DNA from: Planctomycetota bacterium
GTDB lineage: Bacteria; Planctomycetota; Phycisphaerae; UBA1845
NCBI GenBank assembly: GCA_024280855.1
Contig: JAJRPG010000093.1
Location: 1-64,000, forward strand
DNA: 64,000 nt
Direction: 5' to 3'
In this document: positions 31,045 to 38,331 of the stretch, piece after piece
Position numbering within the stretch: position 1 is the first letter of the stretch
Layout: the number at the start of each line of letters is the position of its first letter
The notes under the pieces: generated by a model
What the model was told of the DNA's origin: nothing
The model's database searches: none
The model's input: only the letters and a program-made list of their open reading frames with translations
Translations under genes and position numbers: made by a program

Positions 31045-32061
31045 ATGCATTATACAAAAACACCTTTTGCTACAACTGCACTTGCGGTCGTGGCGTGGCT
31101 GAGCTTGCCTTTATGCGCGACGGCGCAGGATCAGCATACTCACCAAGATCAACATGTAGATCGTCATACCGATTCCATCGTGACGCCTGAACACGAAATC
31201 ACCCCGGCTGACACCTTCTTGTTGGCTACGTTTGTCCTTGAGGAAATCGAACTCATCCGCGACGAATTAGGGAAGCCTAAGAATACTCAGCCCGTAATCG
31301 ATGTTGCAGGTGCGGCCCCACGCGAGGCCTACTTTCAAGCTGTCACCTTATTCCGAAAAACTGACAAGCTCTGTTTTGAAATTACGAGAGACCGCCATCT
31401 TGATATTGAGATTCAGACGGGCGAAATCGAAGCGAAGCACGTCTGGCATATGATTAACCGCGTAATTAAAAAGCTTAATCTAGTAAAAACGAGGCTGGGT
31501 ATTAAAGAAACCAGCCGAATGCACGATCGAGATTCTGGTAAAGGACCGAGCGACGTATTTCGCGTGATCGTACATGCCAATCGGCAATTGAACCTATTGC
31601 TCGACAAGCGGTTTTTACCAAGCGATGTTTTCCAGCAAGTTACACTGGCTATTAATTACTCTTCGCGCCTGCTAGCTCAATTTCCAGAATCGAACAGGAT
31701 TCCGGACGCTCCCACTTATCAGCGACGTAAGCACCCCAAGGATGTCTATTTTCTTCTGGTAAATTGTTATGGCCATCTTCACGAAATCGCAAGACAATCT
31801 CATGTGGAATCGCTCACCTTGACTTTTAACGAAATTGACATGAAATCAATCACGCCGAGCGATGTCTATGATATCGCCTCTGTTATAGTCTCCGAACTTG
31901 CATTCCTTCATGAGCAAATAGCCAACATTGAACCACCCGCCAAAACTTACTACGCCGGGCGTAAGATTCCTTCTGATGTCTACCAAAGGGCAGGGATGTT
32001 GGAGGCTCAGCTGATAGAATTATTGAGTCGAGTGAACCATTCTTCTGGTTGGCTGGAGTAA
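31045..32061 (+). CDS. Exported protein with PSDVY helical repeats, unknown function
   Basis: I recognise no family. The 338 residues start with a signal peptide ending near CATAQ and a His-rich stretch (DQHTHQDQHVDRH). Five segments then share P(S/K)DV(Y/F) followed by about 18 residues of helix with Leu/Ile at regular spacing: GPSDVFRVIVHANRQLNLLL, LPSDVFQQVTLAINYSSRLL, HPKDVYFLLVNCYGHLHEI, TPSDVYDIASVIVSELAFL and IPSDVYQRAGMLEAQLIELL. Two weaker repeats precede them (APREAYFQAVTLFRKTDKL and AKHVWHMINRVIKKLNLV). The gene is followed at once by two histidine kinases on the same strand, so it may be the periplasmic sensor or ligand-binding partner of that pathway. AAGGAA precedes the start. 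Confidence 0.8.
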   Translation: MHYTKTPFATTALAVVAWLSLPLCATAQDQHTHQDQHVDRHTDSIVTPEHEITPADTFLLATFVLEEIELIRDELGKPKNTQPVIDVAGAAPREAYFQAVTLFRKTDKLCFEITRDRHLDIEIQTGEIEAKHVWHMINRVIKKLNLVKTRLGIKETSRMHDRDSGKGPSDVFRVIVHANRQLNLLLDKRFLPSDVFQQVTLAINYSSRLLAQFPESNRIPDAPTYQRRKHPKDVYFLLVNCYGHLHEIARQSHVESLTLTFNEIDMKSITPSDVYDIASVIVSELAFLHEQIANIEPPAKTYYAGRKIPSDVYQRAGMLEAQLIELLSRVNHSSGWLE

Positions 32062-32072
32062 GCGATACCACT

Positions 32073-34547
32073 GTGAAATTTCTTTATCCTGAATATTATG
32101 AGATGCCGGAACACGTACAGACGTTCAAAGAGAAGAACGGCTTACGGCATCAGCTCATTCACTCACATATGGCTGTGGCGTTAATCGCTTTTTGCGCATT
32201 ACTTTTTTCGCTTGGCTCAATCATGATGTTGCGCTCGAATGTGGTTCGTCTAACGGAATTACGCGAACCGACAGCAAGATCGTCATCCCGCGCCTTGGCT
32301 GGCCTGCATCACACGCTGGCCTCGCTGCGCGGGTGGGTTTCTGTGGGAGATACGCAATTCAAGCATGAACGCAAGCAAGCGTGGGACAATGAAGTTACTA
32401 GCTCGCTCAAAAACCTGCAGGCCTTGAGTGTGAACTGGACAGTACCAAAAAATAATCGTCGGCTTGAGGAAGCGACTCGATTACTGACAGAGTTGAAAGA
32501 GGTGCAATGGCACATCGAAGACGTAGCTCAGTCGCTAGGCAACGAGCCTGGTCGTGTTTTGTTAGAAAATGATATTTATCCTTTAAGCGAAGCCATCGCG
32601 TTGCCTATCACATCATTGATTGACATCGAAAAAAGTCGCCCACCCACTATTCAAAGTAAGAATTATTTGGGTTGGATGGCTGATTTACGTTACTCATTCT
32701 CTCAATGCAGATCGCAATTGTCTGATTATGTAGAAAGCGGAGACGCGGCGACACGCGATAATGTGATAGAAAATTTGAAGACCGTGATGCGCAACGTAGA
32801 AAATATTAATGCGCAACAACAAGTCCTATCTACAGATCAAATCGCGATGTTGAGCGATATAATGTTCAACCTGGAAGCCTATCAATATTTGGTGGAACAC
32901 GTTGTAGAAATCCGTCAGCAAAATGACTGGAATGTCGCGCAGCATCTGCTGGTTACGCAAGCCATCCCTAGAGCGCGCAAAGCGGCCGACTTGCTGGAGA
33001 GCATGAATGCGAGCCAGGCTTCGTTGAGCAGCGTTGATGGTGACTGGGTGAACAAGATTTGCGACATTGCCATCATAGGCTCACTGGTGATGATTACCGT
33101 CTTGATGATAGGGGCACAGGTAGCGTCCACGCGAGGCGCCAGGAAAATTACGGTTCCCATTGCTGCGCTATCACAGGCCACCAAAGACTTAGCTGAAGGG
33201 CGACTTGTCAATGATATACCGATTACGACTAAGGACGAACTTGGTCATCTCACGCAGTCGTTTAATCAGATGCGCCGCCGATTACACGAATCTGATATTG
33301 AAGTACGCAAAAGCGAAAACCGTGTGCGGGCATTGGTAGATACGGCTGCCAATGGCATTCTCACGATAAACGAAGAAGGCACTATTCTAACATTCAATGG
33401 CGAAGCCGAGAAGATATTCGGATACAGCGATGTGGAAGCTATCGGCCGAAATGTGAATATACTCATGCCGTCCCCCTATCATGAATCGCACGATATCTAT
33501 TTACTGCAATATCTCTGCACGGGCCCTAAGAAAGTCATTGGAAAGCGTCGAGAATTAGTGGGCAAACGTAAGGATGGCACGACCTTCCCCATGGAGCTTT
33601 CTGTCTCTGAAATGAACACGGACTCTGTGCGCGCCTTTAGCGGAATCGTGACTGACATCACTAAACGCAAAAAGATGGAAGATGATTTGGCTGGTATGAA
33701 CAGCGAATTGATAAGCGCATCACGCAAAGCAGGCATGGCTGAGATAGCGACTGGGGTGCTACATAATGTTGGGAACGTTCTTAATAGTGTCAACATTTCG
33801 GCCTCGTTGGTTTCAAGCAAAGTGAAAAATTCTCGCCTACCGAACCTTGCCAAAGCATCAACCATGATGCTTGAACAAGGCGAGAATCTTGGCGCATTTA
33901 TTTCGCTAGATGAAAAAGGAAAACGATTGCCTCGATATTTGGCCAAGCTGGCGAATACATTGGCTGATGAGCAGCAATACATTGTTGACGAACTGAGTAC
34001 GCTAGAGAAGAACATCGAGCACATTAAAAAAATCGTCCAATCGCAACAATCAAATGCACGCATCTCAACGATCACCGAAACATCCTGTGTTTCGGAACTT
34101 GTGGAGGACGCTATCACCATCAATGCGCAGGCAATGGAGCGTGAGGGCATTGAAATGGTGCGCGACTTCGATGAATTGCCAAAGGTAATATTCGACAAGC
34201 AAAAGCTACTTCAAATACTCATCAATCTGATCCGCAATGCCAGGCATGCTATCGCTGAAGCAGACAGTAACGAAAAGCGAATCACCGTTCGTATTAAGAC
34301 CAAAGGCGAGCGTGAGATTGCGATTGATGTCATCGATACAGGCATTGGTATTACAGCGGACAACATGACATGTATTTTTCAGCACGGATTCACGACTAAA
34401 ACAGATGGTCATGGATTCGGCCTGCATAGTAGTGTGCTTGCAGCAAAAGATATGAAGGGCGAATTGACGGCATGTAGCAATGGACTACATCAAGGGGCCA
34501 CCTTCAGGGTAGAGTTTCCAGTAACATATGAAATGGTGACAGCATGA
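32073..34547 (+). CDS. Membrane sensor histidine kinase (HAMP, PAS, HATPase)
   Basis: An inner-membrane signalling kinase. A first helix near residues 33-55 (AVALIAFCALLFSLGSI) leads to a periplasmic helical sensor of about 290 residues, and a second helix (IAIIGSLVMITVLMIGAQVA-like) follows. Then come a HAMP domain (ITVPIAALSQATKDLAEGRL), a PAS domain (ALVDTAANGILTINEEGTIL) and the phosphoacceptor box GVLHNVGNVLNSVNIS. The ATP-binding domain has the N-box LINLIRNARHAI, DTGIGI and GHGFGLH. The start is uncertain: GTG 32073 is chosen, with ATG 32103 and TTG 32049 as alternatives. It overlaps the next kinase gene by four bases. Confidence 0.9.
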   Translation: MKFLYPEYYEMPEHVQTFKEKNGLRHQLIHSHMAVALIAFCALLFSLGSIMMLRSNVVRLTELREPTARSSSRALAGLHHTLASLRGWVSVGDTQFKHERKQAWDNEVTSSLKNLQALSVNWTVPKNNRRLEEATRLLTELKEVQWHIEDVAQSLGNEPGRVLLENDIYPLSEAIALPITSLIDIEKSRPPTIQSKNYLGWMADLRYSFSQCRSQLSDYVESGDAATRDNVIENLKTVMRNVENINAQQQVLSTDQIAMLSDIMFNLEAYQYLVEHVVEIRQQNDWNVAQHLLVTQAIPRARKAADLLESMNASQASLSSVDGDWVNKICDIAIIGSLVMITVLMIGAQVASTRGARKITVPIAALSQATKDLAEGRLVNDIPITTKDELGHLTQSFNQMRRRLHESDIEVRKSENRVRALVDTAANGILTINEEGTILTFNGEAEKIFGYSDVEAIGRNVNILMPSPYHESHDIYLLQYLCTGPKKVIGKRRELVGKRKDGTTFPMELSVSEMNTDSVRAFSGIVTDITKRKKMEDDLAGMNSELISASRKAGMAEIATGVLHNVGNVLNSVNISASLVSSKVKNSRLPNLAKASTMMLEQGENLGAFISLDEKGKRLPRYLAKLANTLADEQQYIVDELSTLEKNIEHIKKIVQSQQSNARISTITETSCVSELVEDAITINAQAMEREGIEMVRDFDELPKVIFDKQKLLQILINLIRNARHAIAEADSNEKRITVRIKTKGEREIAIDVIDTGIGITADNMTCIFQHGFTTKTDGHGFGLHSSVLAAKDMKGELTACSNGLHQGATFRVEFPVTYEMVTA

Positions 34548-36358
34548 GCGCAGCAGAAGAAATCACGAAAAATCGTTCGATCCTGATTGTGGACGACAAC
34601 AAATCCATCCACGAAGACTTTCGTAAGATTCTACCTTGTGATGCCGCTGAGGCAGTCATAGATGATGATGAGCTGGCTTTGTTTGGAGATTCTGCAACGG
34701 TGAATGATACTCTCCCGTTTGAAATAGAATCAGCATACCAGGGGCAGGAGGCGTTGGCTATGGTGCGCGAGTCGGCTAAGTCCGGTCGCCACTATGCGAT
34801 GGCGTTTGTTGATATTCGCATGCCACCAGGTTGGGACGGCGTCGAAACCGTGGCTAAAATTTGGGCTTTTGATCCGTACATTCAAATTGTGTTATGCACG
34901 GCTTACTCCGACTATTCGTGGGATGAGATGATCGAGAAATTGGGCATGACGGACCGATTGCTGATCCTTAAAAAACCGTTCGATTTTGTAGAAGTTCGTC
35001 AACTCGCTGAGTCACTTACAGAAAAATGGACCGTGAGTCGGGAATCTCGCATGAAGCTTAAGGAAATCGAGAGTCGCGTGACAATTCGCACGAAAGAACT
35101 TCAAGCTGCTCACGAAGCATTAGCCGAAGCCCGTGACGAGGCTGAAGCCGCTAACGCTGCGAAGTCGATGTTCCTGGCTAACATGAGCCATGAAATACGT
35201 ACACCCATGACAGCCATCCTGGGATATGCCGAGAACATCTTAGAACCTAATCAGCCAAATGAAGAACGTGTCGATGCAGCGGACACGATTATGAGAAACA
35301 GTAAGCATCTGCTGACGATCATAAACGATATTTTAGACCTCTCAAAAATCGAGGCGGGCGAGCTGACCACAGAAACTATCTCGTGTTCCCCGGTCGAAAT
35401 CATCAACGACATTCTTGAACTCATCAAACCACGGGCACAGAAAAAAGGGATCGTTGTTGACGCAAAACTAAACGGTGAGATCCCTGAAACCATTAATAGT
35501 GACCCCACAAGGCTGCGTCAAATTCTGGTCAATTTACTCAGTAATAGTGTCAAATTTACGAAAGATGGTAGTGTCAACATTGAAATAAGCTTAGGCGAAA
35601 CGAAGCATGGAAAGACAATCCTACAATTTGACGTGACTGATACTGGCATTGGCATGACACCAGAACAGGCCTCGAAAATATTTCAGCCATTTCATCAAGC
35701 AGATATAAGCACGACTAGACGTTTTGGGGGCACAGGCCTTGGTCTACACATCAGCAAGCTGTTAGCCGAGGCGCTCGGCGGTGACCTCTTCATTGTCGAG
35801 TCAATTGAGAACAAAGGCACGAAATTCAGAATGACTGTCGAAACGGGGTCGTTAATTGACGTGAAAATGATTGACGCGCTAACGTCCACACCTTCTCGTC
35901 CACAAAAAATTACGACACAAGATGTAGACCTATCAGCTTTTCATATTCTCTTAGCCGAGGACAGCATTGACAACCAGCGTTTGATCACTTTCATTCTCAA
36001 CAAAACTGGCGTCAATCTGAGCTTAGCGGAAAATGGTAGAGAGGCGGTTGATATGACACTATCGGCTCGAAACCAAGATAAGCCCATAGATCTAATTTTG
36101 ATGGATATGCAAATGCCTGAGATGGATGGCTATGAGGCAGCGAGAACTTTGCGAGAGGCGGGATTCGCCGGGCCAATTATTGCACTTACGGCCCACTCCA
36201 TGTCAAGCGACCGCGAGAAGTGTATCAACTCAGGCTGCGATGAATATGCCACGAAACCGATCGATCGAAACGCGCTGCTTCACACATTATCCCAATTTCT
36301 TACGCAATACCGAAAGAGCATTCATCCGCCTATAGTTGGTAGTGCGATAGGCGGATGA
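34544..36358 (+). CDS. Hybrid histidine kinase: receiver, kinase, receiver
   Basis: A cytoplasmic 604-residue hybrid kinase. It starts with a receiver domain (ILIVDDNKSIHEDF; phospho-Asp in FVDIRMPPGWDG; LKKPFDF), followed by a coiled coil (EALAEARDEAEAANAAKSMF). The HisKA box is ANMSHEIRTPMTAILGY. The ATPase has NLLSNSVKFT, DTGIGM and RRFGGTGLGLHIS. A second receiver ends the protein (ILLAEDSIDNQRL; LMDMQMPEMDG; CDEYATKPIDR). There is no membrane helix, so the signal likely comes from the upstream membrane kinase, with which it is translationally coupled (ATGA overlap). There is no DNA-binding output domain. Confidence 0.93.
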   Translation: MSAAEEITKNRSILIVDDNKSIHEDFRKILPCDAAEAVIDDDELALFGDSATVNDTLPFEIESAYQGQEALAMVRESAKSGRHYAMAFVDIRMPPGWDGVETVAKIWAFDPYIQIVLCTAYSDYSWDEMIEKLGMTDRLLILKKPFDFVEVRQLAESLTEKWTVSRESRMKLKEIESRVTIRTKELQAAHEALAEARDEAEAANAAKSMFLANMSHEIRTPMTAILGYAENILEPNQPNEERVDAADTIMRNSKHLLTIINDILDLSKIEAGELTTETISCSPVEIINDILELIKPRAQKKGIVVDAKLNGEIPETINSDPTRLRQILVNLLSNSVKFTKDGSVNIEISLGETKHGKTILQFDVTDTGIGMTPEQASKIFQPFHQADISTTRRFGGTGLGLHISKLLAEALGGDLFIVESIENKGTKFRMTVETGSLIDVKMIDALTSTPSRPQKITTQDVDLSAFHILLAEDSIDNQRLITFILNKTGVNLSLAENGREAVDMTLSARNQDKPIDLILMDMQMPEMDGYEAARTLREAGFAGPIIALTAHSMSSDREKCINSGCDEYATKPIDRNALLHTLSQFLTQYRKSIHPPIVGSAIGG

Positions 36359-36372
36359 GATAATATTCAGAG

Positions 36373-38331
36373 CTAATCCGACGTGTCTCGCTCAGATACA
36401 AGCGAGTTGTTTTCATCACATGTCGCAGGCACCGGCCCTGCGGGGTGTTCCTCTTCGTACATTTCCTTGGTCATCTCTCCGTTGAGCCATGCGGGATTCA
36501 TGGGATACACGGAAGGACTAAACACAGTGGCGTAGATATGCCAAACTAAGATGGCTAATGTCGCAAGCCATGCTTCGTAATAGTGAATTACTTGAGACAC
36601 ATCGAGAACAACTTTTCTGATATTCCAGGATTCGGTAAAAAAGTTCTCAAAGGAAAGAACAATACCTGTGACAGCCATGACTACAGACCCCCAAATGAGT
36701 GCCCAGTATTCTAACTTTTCCATGTAGCTGAAGCGTCGAAAAAGAGGCGGTTTGCTTCTACGTCCAAGGAAAAATAAAACATGGTTATACATATCCGTAA
36801 CATCGCGTGCGGAACCCATGATAGCTCTCAACCATGAGCGGCCTGGCCTTGTACATAAATAAACCAAATGCCATATACCACACAAGATGAAGACGACAGC
36901 CACAACCCGGTGAATCATTCCGCGATAAAGAAATCCTGCCCCACCTCCCCATCCAAATAACGCCTGAACCCACCACGCATCTGAGAATCGAAGGGAAAAT
37001 CCAGTTAAGACTAAGGCCGTAAAGGACAGCATGAGTAACCAGTGTTGAGCCACCTCAGTCGTCGTCATTCGAACGACGCAGACCCCCTTAGCCCTTATTT
37101 TCATGTGTCGATGCCAATGGGCGATATTATGCAGCAGCATAAATCCAATGGTGACGCCAATAAGCCATTTATACACAACCGCCACGAACTGAGGCCACCC
37201 TGACACCGCCCCCAAATCGGGACCATGAATCGGTGATTGGGCCATAACGGATGAAATGCCAGGATGACACTCCCCGCATGTATTTTGCAGGTTCTTAGGA
37301 TTTATCGAGGAGTTTTGATCCGTATGCGGCAAGATAAGGTGGGTACCGTGGCAAGATGCGCAATTGGCCACATGGATATCGCTCCCCTGTCGCTTACGAC
37401 CATGATATGAGTCTATGTAAGAAGGTGATTTTCCTGTAACCATGCCGAATCTTTCGTTGAGGGCAACCGATTCATGACATGGCGAACATGTAGCTTCTGC
37501 AAGCCTAGCTGCACTAACCGGCGAGCGAATATCCGACACCGGTAAGATGCCGTGCTCACCGTGGCAGTGCGTGCATACTGGCGCGTCCATGTCACCCTGC
37601 AAAACAAGCTGACCATGCACACCCATTAGGTAATCACGGGCCACGTCTGGATGACACTTACTACATGTTTTTGGTACGTTAAAATGGTAGACACTCGACC
37701 GCGGATCAGTCGGACTAAGTATACGATGGGCTGTAGGCTCCTCGTCCTCGCTTTGAGGCGAATGACAATCGATACACGCAGCAGCCACGCGCGAACGACC
37801 GTCTATCTGCCTGCCGTGTATACTCCCCTCGTACAGTTTAATCGGCTCATCTCTCAAGACATGGTGGTCTTTAATCAGATTTTCATTTGTATGACATGCG
37901 GTACATGTCTTGTGTAAATTGTTGGGGTGTACATGAGATCGCTCATTAGCCACGGGGAGAATATCGTGCGCCCCATGGCAAGCGGAACACTTTGGAATGT
38001 CCGAATCGGTGCCCACCGTAAGCCGGCCATGTTTGGTATATAGCTCTGCCTCTTCATCATGACAATCACCGCACGACACCGGATCCACATCATCGCCATG
38101 CGGGCGTAGTGAAGTGGCATCAATCTCGTCTTCGGATATGGACGCATGACAATCGGTACAATCCATATCCCCGTGTATTGAGTTGCCCAATACTTCCCGA
38201 TAGCTAGTTTGCGAGGTAGTTTTGTGACATGTACGGCAACTCGTCCCTGTTGAGCGCTGAGCAAATGTGGCTGTACATAGTACGATACTGAAAGCTATAG
38301 ATACTGGAGCGATGATTTTGAGCGTCTTCAT
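36373..38331 (-). CDS. 11-heme cytochrome c fused to a cytochrome b561-type membrane domain
   Basis: An envelope electron-transfer protein. After a signal peptide (residues 1-24, ending TATFA) come eleven CxxCH heme sites: CRTCH, CTDCH, CGDCH, CSACH, CTACH, CIDCH, CSKCH, CTHCH, CSPCH, CASCH and CGECH. The C-terminal ~270 residues form a cytochrome b561/formate dehydrogenase gamma-like domain with membrane helices. Candidate b-heme His lie in LLHNIAHWHRH, RGMIHRVVAV, IWHLVYL and VIHYYEAW. The layout suggests quinone oxidation or reduction linked to periplasmic electron transfer, for example to a soluble reductase. The C-terminal tail is acidic. The two histidine kinases converge on it from upstream; a regulatory link is only suggested by position. 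Confidence 0.88.
   Translation of the reverse strand: MKTLKIIAPVSIAFSIVLCTATFAQRSTGTSCRTCHKTTSQTSYREVLGNSIHGDMDCTDCHASISEDEIDATSLRPHGDDVDPVSCGDCHDEEAELYTKHGRLTVGTDSDIPKCSACHGAHDILPVANERSHVHPNNLHKTCTACHTNENLIKDHHVLRDEPIKLYEGSIHGRQIDGRSRVAAACIDCHSPQSEDEEPTAHRILSPTDPRSSVYHFNVPKTCSKCHPDVARDYLMGVHGQLVLQGDMDAPVCTHCHGEHGILPVSDIRSPVSAARLAEATCSPCHESVALNERFGMVTGKSPSYIDSYHGRKRQGSDIHVANCASCHGTHLILPHTDQNSSINPKNLQNTCGECHPGISSVMAQSPIHGPDLGAVSGWPQFVAVVYKWLIGVTIGFMLLHNIAHWHRHMKIRAKGVCVVRMTTTEVAQHWLLMLSFTALVLTGFSLRFSDAWWVQALFGWGGGAGFLYRGMIHRVVAVVFILCGIWHLVYLCTRPGRSWLRAIMGSARDVTDMYNHVLFFLGRRSKPPLFRRFSYMEKLEYWALIWGSVVMAVTGIVLSFENFFTESWNIRKVVLDVSQVIHYYEAWLATLAILVWHIYATVFSPSVYPMNPAWLNGEMTKEMYEEEHPAGPVPATCDENNSLVSERDTSD

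Follow-up and report, generated by a model that had tools for sequence, protein, structure and literature searches.

Within the window, the 64,000-nucleotide stretch of Planctomycetota DNA that was analysed, the open reading frame at 31045-32061 on the forward strand is a real gene, and its 338-residue product is the founding example of a protein family named here for the PSDVY-type motif from which it is built. The reading favoured here, to which a probability of roughly 0.7 is attached, is that the PSDVY protein is a periplasmic partner of the transmembrane receptor encoded beside it, docking on the receptor's sensor in a signal-dependent manner. The PSDVY protein probably assists bacteria in reading signals from outside the inner membrane, since members of the family are encoded almost constantly next to a gene for a membrane sensor. 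Most bacterial transmembrane receptors have no known signal, and sensing through a partner, or indirect sensing, is established for few of them (PMC6321045).

The original prediction had described an array of seven PSDVY-type helical repeats. Five strict copies of P-[SK]-D-V-[YF] (at residues 168, 192, 231, 271 and 309) and two near motifs do form such an array, and the total rises from seven to eight with a degenerate copy, AKHVW, near residue 131, which completes the register. The looser pattern P-x-[DE]-[VAT]-[YFW] finds seven copies, adding PADTF at residue 54 and PREAY at residue 92, whereas 20,000 shuffles gave 0.03 on average and 2 at most. Repeats thus start near residues 54, 92, 131, 168, 192, 231, 271 and 309, with a spacing of about 38-39-37(or 38)-24-39-40-38 residues, and the same register is seen in relatives. 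By motif scan and AlphaFold2 together, the repeat helices lie on the forward strand at 31204-31269 (repeat 1, PADTF), 31318-31386 (repeat 2, PREAY), 31432-31497 (repeat 3, AKHVW), 31546-31593 (repeat 4, PSDVF), 31618-31674 (repeat 5, PSDVF, at the short 24-residue spacing from repeat 4), 31735-31797 (repeat 6, PKDVY), 31855-31914 (repeat 7, PSDVY) and 31969-32040 (repeat 8, PSDVY).

Structure prediction, proposed at the outset as a check, returns a helix at every one of the eight. The AlphaFold2 model, for which seven sequences served as input, has a pLDDT of 81 and a pTM of 0.77 and consists of eight long predicted helices, each of which starts at a motif. As each predicted helix opens in this way, the PSDVY-type motif is suggested to act as a helix cap. 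Furthermore, alignment of repeats 1-4 with repeats 5-8 by hhalign places the two sets in register with a score of 32.8, compared with at most 16.3 for 20 column-shuffled controls, so that the predicted octet resembles a duplicated set of four repeats. Longer members of the family, of approximately 540-630 residues (L020, L093, L097, L101 and L103), carry extra repeat copies, and the motif positions of L020 look like two tandem octets.

Residues 1-28 (31045-31128, forward strand) resemble a signal peptide, with a cleavage site placed by eye near ATA/Q. A hydrophobic 12-mer is present at the N-terminus of 42 of the 50 family members, and a simple lipobox-like pattern is matched by a single one of the 50, the window protein being without it. 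The His-rich N-terminus remarked upon in the original prediction is indeed present in the window protein; a comparable stretch occurs in 0 of 9 aligned relatives, and for this reason its candidacy as a metal or heme site was rejected and no role for it found support.

The original prediction had called the protein unrecognised, and no known family was found for it. At E up to 1, Pfam, NCBIfam and PHROGs contained no hit for the window protein, the sequences of the PDB contained none at E up to 10, and profile A1, made from the family alignment, likewise found nothing in the PDB. Neither the Pfam profiles for TPR, HEAT, Sel1 and similar repeats nor the Pfam and NCBIfam profiles for solute-binding proteins matched it at E up to 1. 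Ten diverse relatives yielded no credible Pfam match, and a search of NCBIfam with diverse relatives was likewise negative (E up to 0.01). Two relatives showed weak PexRD54_WY hits (E 0.00028 and 0.047), which span 11-18 residues, fall below the cut-off and were discounted as short matches of a repeat-like kind. At the level of fold, Foldseek comparison of the PSDVY model gave no match at E<=0.001 to either the PDB or BFVD, and the best VIA-align result was a Z of 4.7 (3.4 Å over 101 residues) to a fumarate lyase, with no family prominent; the absence of a fold match does not by itself make the PSDVY fold new. A tblastn search of plasmids with the window protein or a dCache-group relative found no match, and a phage origin is without support, as none of 18 pattern matches in viral contigs was confirmed. 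No description of the family or motif was found in the open-licence literature. To judge from these comparisons, the PSDVY proteins are an undescribed, probably exported family.

Downstream of the PSDVY gene, the two overlapping or adjoining kinase genes expected from the original prediction were both found. The first, at 32049-34547 on the forward strand, encodes a sensor kinase with a sensor domain of the type here called TPGN, followed by HAMP, PAS and HATPase_c domains. Its start codon is uncertain (TTG at 32049, GTG at 32073 or ATG at 32103), so that it either overlaps the PSDVY gene or lies just 3' of it. The second, at 34544-36358 on the same strand, overlaps the first by an ATGA and encodes a soluble hybrid kinase (REC-HisKA-HATPase_c-REC), likely a downstream element of the sensor kinase. 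Convergent with the kinases, at 36373-38331 on the other strand, lies a gene whose product joins a multiheme c-type cytochrome to a membrane domain resembling cytochrome b561. The cytochrome had been noted from the beginning; its inclusion in the system was rejected, as it is not a recurring neighbour of the 47 genes surveyed.

The TPGN sensor domain of the window kinase, together with its two transmembrane helices (32139-33164, forward strand), was modelled as entirely helical (pLDDT 80.9, pTM 0.57) and is most readily interpreted as a pair of four-helix bundles, one stacked on the other. Among solved structures the best match is NasR (4akk; Z 18.8, 4.9 Å over 269 residues), and the model also resembles LytS from the XylFII-LytS complex (Z 17.1, 1.8 Å over 121 residues) and, with a lower score, TorS as solved together with TorT (Z 14.4, 2.7 Å over 115 residues); helical-bundle matches are weak evidence, with values of Z below about 13 possibly reflecting a common arrangement, and since generic helical bundles appear in the same list at Z 12-15, only the matches to NasR and LytS stand out, and these modestly. 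In a search of PDB sequences with the sensor profile, LytS appeared at E 0.015, which alone is not significant. The Pfam model 4HB_MCP_1 scores 25.4 bits on the window kinase, under its cut-off of 27, and 28.8 bits, over that cut-off, on a TPGN-type relative that has no PSDVY neighbour; the NIT domain of Pfam gave no match to the window kinase.

Profile searches, of the kind suggested at the outset as a further check, gathered 50 genes from four phylum-level samples (47 surveyed for neighbours at first, and then L117, L118 and L119). The PSDVY gene is linked to a receptor: 44 of the 50 have a co-oriented, adjacent transmembrane receptor gene within approximately 160 bases, mostly overlapping or separated by 40 bases or fewer. 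Whether homologues always neighbour kinases of the window type had been posed as a question, and the answer is that they do so frequently rather than always, given that the adjacent receptors comprise histidine kinases, hybrid kinases, chemoreceptors and Ser/Thr kinases. By contrast with this linkage, HATPase_c and MCPsignal domains (at least 829 matches to the former and 153 to the latter in about 60 Mb of 14 such genomes) mark at least about 2% of genes if one gene is taken per kb, a simple contrast that is inflated by the kinship of the 50 genes, which include clades and near-copies. The proposal of a new type of periplasmic sensor module is consistent with a protein of no known family and a receptor beside 44 of 50 genes; it gains support as regards partnership, sensing by the protein itself being putative.

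The receptors carry three kinds of sensor, namely the tandem four-helix TPGN sensor of the window type, dCache and a chemoreceptor type. Partners were labelled as TPGN sensors in 15 cases, dCache-type kinases in 22 and chemoreceptors in 7 (a group labelled 4HB, for which Pfam shows just HAMP and MCPsignal on L100 and L119), and 6 genes were labelled as having none, these being five genes without a receptor and L103, which lies at a contig end. An output domain was recognised by Pfam in 39 of the 44 receptors, and in the remaining five (L005, L011, L085, L097 and L111) the receptor gene is incomplete, owing to a contig end or a break. HATPase_c is present in 29 of 46 downstream proteins, the kinase sensor domain PF21623 in 22 of 46 and dCache_1 in 18 of 46; MCPsignal occurs in 8 receptors neighbouring PSDVY genes, and a Ser/Thr Pkinase domain in two (L117 and L118). 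The TPGN sensor itself is found on PAS-kinase, hybrid kinase, chemoreceptor and Ser/Thr-kinase outputs. At L080, the chemoreceptor lies upstream of the PSDVY gene, and 202 bases downstream is a GGDEF-EAL protein with a TPGN-like sensor.

Several of these loci have individual features. At L117 (3460-6488) and L118 (3342-6394), the PSDVY gene is followed by one in which a Ser/Thr protein kinase is fused to a TPGN-type sensor, and similar multi-pass membrane proteins come next after both kinases (open reading frames L117:6988 and L118:6397). The chemoreceptor adjoining the PSDVY gene at L082 (2095-5073) combines a TPGN-like sensor with a hemerythrin domain at its C-terminus. The partner kinase of the same-family relative (L011:8932-11769) is interrupted by one TAA, either as a pseudogene or through a sequencing error.

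Linkage of this kind would also be seen if the PSDVY protein were an inhibitor of the receptor or a monitor of envelope stress, clamping the resting sensor and being removed or degraded under stress, which is how CpxP acts on CpxA. The PSDVY protein is, like such an inhibitor, predicted to be all-helical, looks exported and adjoins sensor genes, and the evidence in general fits an activator and an inhibitor alike. This explanation is nonetheless thought unlikely, as the models of Pfam and NCBIfam, those of CpxP type included, leave the window protein unmatched at E up to 1, and a stress monitor has no obvious need of dedicated copies for chemoreceptors, dCache kinases and Ser/Thr kinases.

Sequence divergence ties the PSDVY protein to the sensor of its partner. 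Within the TPGN group, the pairwise distances of PSDVY proteins correlate with those of the partner sensor domains, with r=0.84 and a permutation p of 1.5e-4 (Mantel test on 11 pairs, that is 11 of 15 rows, with L011, L082, L117 and L118 left out). For the TPGN pairs with a recognisable kinase core, the sensor gives r=0.83 and the core r=-0.29, in a comparison of only 7 pairs whose kinase types are unlike. The contrast is slight in the dCache group, where r is 0.94 for the sensor and 0.85 for the core (17 pairs from 22 rows, four long members and L085 being left out). In addition, in a family tree of 44 of the 50 members (six outside 260-480 residues were dropped), partner type changes 4 times, compared with a mean of 21.5 after shuffling, in a tree with several long branches and an uncertain inner order. 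Together, the co-variation with the sensor and the way in which partner type follows the tree argue that, on the sequence evidence, PSDVY protein and sensor stay together while the output changes.

These observations bear on a second alternative, in which the PSDVY protein is a target regulated by the receptor, or a mere operon neighbour such as an envelope structural protein or scaffold, and has no contact with the sensor. A target would be expected to track the output pathway, whereas the PSDVY protein keeps to the sensor across changes of output and, in the TPGN pairs, co-varies with the sensor domain and not with the kinase core; the alternative is therefore considered improbable. In its favour are five Nitrospirota-type PSDVY genes (L104, two in L105, L106 and L112) that have no adjacent receptor. 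Upstream of three of these (L104, L112 and L105:6511) lies a gene for a small protein that looks exported and bears the motif LTGGVIPLLSYD (L112:4462-5025, L104:4451-4990 and L105:7612-8406); its L112 copy has no match in Pfam or NCBIfam. As there is also no TPGN sensor match in genome G510, the PSDVY protein can evidently exist without such a partner. Conversely, seven sites in the order have TPGN-type sensors with no PSDVY neighbour (contig C110 of G000, contig C649 of G105, and G079, G080, G083, G084 and G085), from which it appears that the sensor can work without the PSDVY protein.

The family is patchily distributed. It is present in 4 of 114 genomes of its own order, the window genome counted, and absent from both further genomes of the genus. 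With profile A1, and counting the seed genome in each case, it was found in 4 of 392 genomes of its own phylum, 23 of 398 of the phylum of the gammaproteobacterial MAG G508, 6 of 198 of that of the Nitrospiraceae MAG G510, and 3 of 193 of that of the deltaproteobacterial MAG G505. Named relatives come from Roseiconus nitratireducens, a Micavibrio MAG, two gammaproteobacterial MAGs, a deltaproteobacterial MAG and a Nitrospiraceae MAG. The window protein is 46% identical to the deltaproteobacterial copy and 38% identical to that of a member of its own family, which suggests that the PSDVY family has spread horizontally. That the linkage is simply a by-product of one signalling cassette spreading in this manner, with no partnership involved, would suit both the patchiness and the identities but is highly improbable, because the type of receptor varies by clade and adjacency is nevertheless kept across four phylum-level groups.

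Returning to the PSDVY protein as a receptor partner, we infer periplasmic export, direct docking and dependence on a signal, and the following sequence of events may be envisaged. The exported octet, with its eight capped helices in two related sets of four, would dock on the membrane-distal part of the sensor, its partner in the window being the tandem four-helix sensor of the HAMP-PAS-HATPase kinase. A signal outside the inner membrane would govern the state of the octet, whose docking would shift the sensor bundle and thereby the HAMP domain and kinase beneath, after which the soluble hybrid kinase would pass the phosphate onward.

As to the nature of the signal, a hint comes from the TPGN-type receptors that have no PSDVY neighbour. 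On contig C110 of the window's own genome, a chemoreceptor (L036:7200-9653) has its TPGN-type sensor split by a Tll0287-like heme-c domain (CVSCH), with no PSDVY gene adjacent. The gene next to the TPGN-type sites of G080 and G083 encodes a Tll0287-like chemoreceptor (L127 and L128), so that a Tll0287-like domain lies in or beside 3 of the 7 TPGN-type sites in the order without a PSDVY neighbour; a Tll0287-like gene also adjoins at least two PSDVY loci, L118 and L088. A detector built from two Tll0287-like sequences proved too narrow, recovering its own seeds only and missing cases evident from Pfam, and was excluded from the counts. Tll0287-like domains fused to signalling modules have NO-sensor properties (PMC12889525), and their occurrence at TPGN receptors lacking PSDVY genes thus points weakly to a redox or nitrosative signal. 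A far-reaching and rather doubtful extension is that PSDVY octets constitute a new and widespread class of periplasmic adaptor, with an unseen fold, for all main kinds of receptor, and that those of the TPGN group may replace heme-based inputs, reporting redox or nitrosative state.

If the partner reading is true, the neighbouring gene would provide a simple handle on receptors in approximately 6% of the sampled Pseudomonadota-group genomes (23 of 398, seed included), as well as a direct way to ask how one protein family addresses three kinds of sensor domain.

Among known systems, the Tll0287-like (DUF3365) heme-c Cache sensor is associated with the same receptor classes as the PSDVY protein and also occurs as stand-alone exported modules (PMC12889525), and it is found within or adjacent to TPGN-type receptors that have no PSDVY gene next to them. 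It has, however, an alpha/beta Cache fold and a CXXCH heme site as described there, and the PSDVY protein has neither. The resemblance to the NIT, or tandem four-helix, sensor of NasR is the best fold match obtained and concerns the partner kinase only. A further parallel is QseG, an accessory lipoprotein of the outer membrane that is encoded with the histidine kinase QseE and activates it directly (PMC12691602). Like the PSDVY protein, QseG is encoded beside a kinase and is not a binding protein, but in that source it is a lipoprotein with a single type of kinase partner, whereas PSDVY proteins have several types of partner and a lipobox-like motif is rare among them.

Functional counterparts are TorT/TorS, XylFII/LytS and LuxP/LuxQ, each of which comprises a periplasmic binding protein and a receptor, and such indirect binding is not restricted to one type of sensor domain (PMC6321045). 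As in these systems, an exported protein is linked to a transmembrane receptor, and the sensors of LytS and TorS rank high among the fold matches to the modelled sensor of the window kinase. TorT, XylFII and LuxP share a bilobal binding-protein structure (PMC6321045), whereas the PSDVY protein shows no sequence relation to them and is predicted to be all-helical, with eight capped repeats; rather than a bilobal alpha/beta architecture, its model has eight long helices and strands of merely two residues. The PSDVY protein most likely works, by analogy, as a receptor partner of the TorT/XylFII kind, while its predicted structure places it outside that structural family, and if the family is indeed a receptor partner, such partners would fall into two structural classes, the binding-protein fold being the other.
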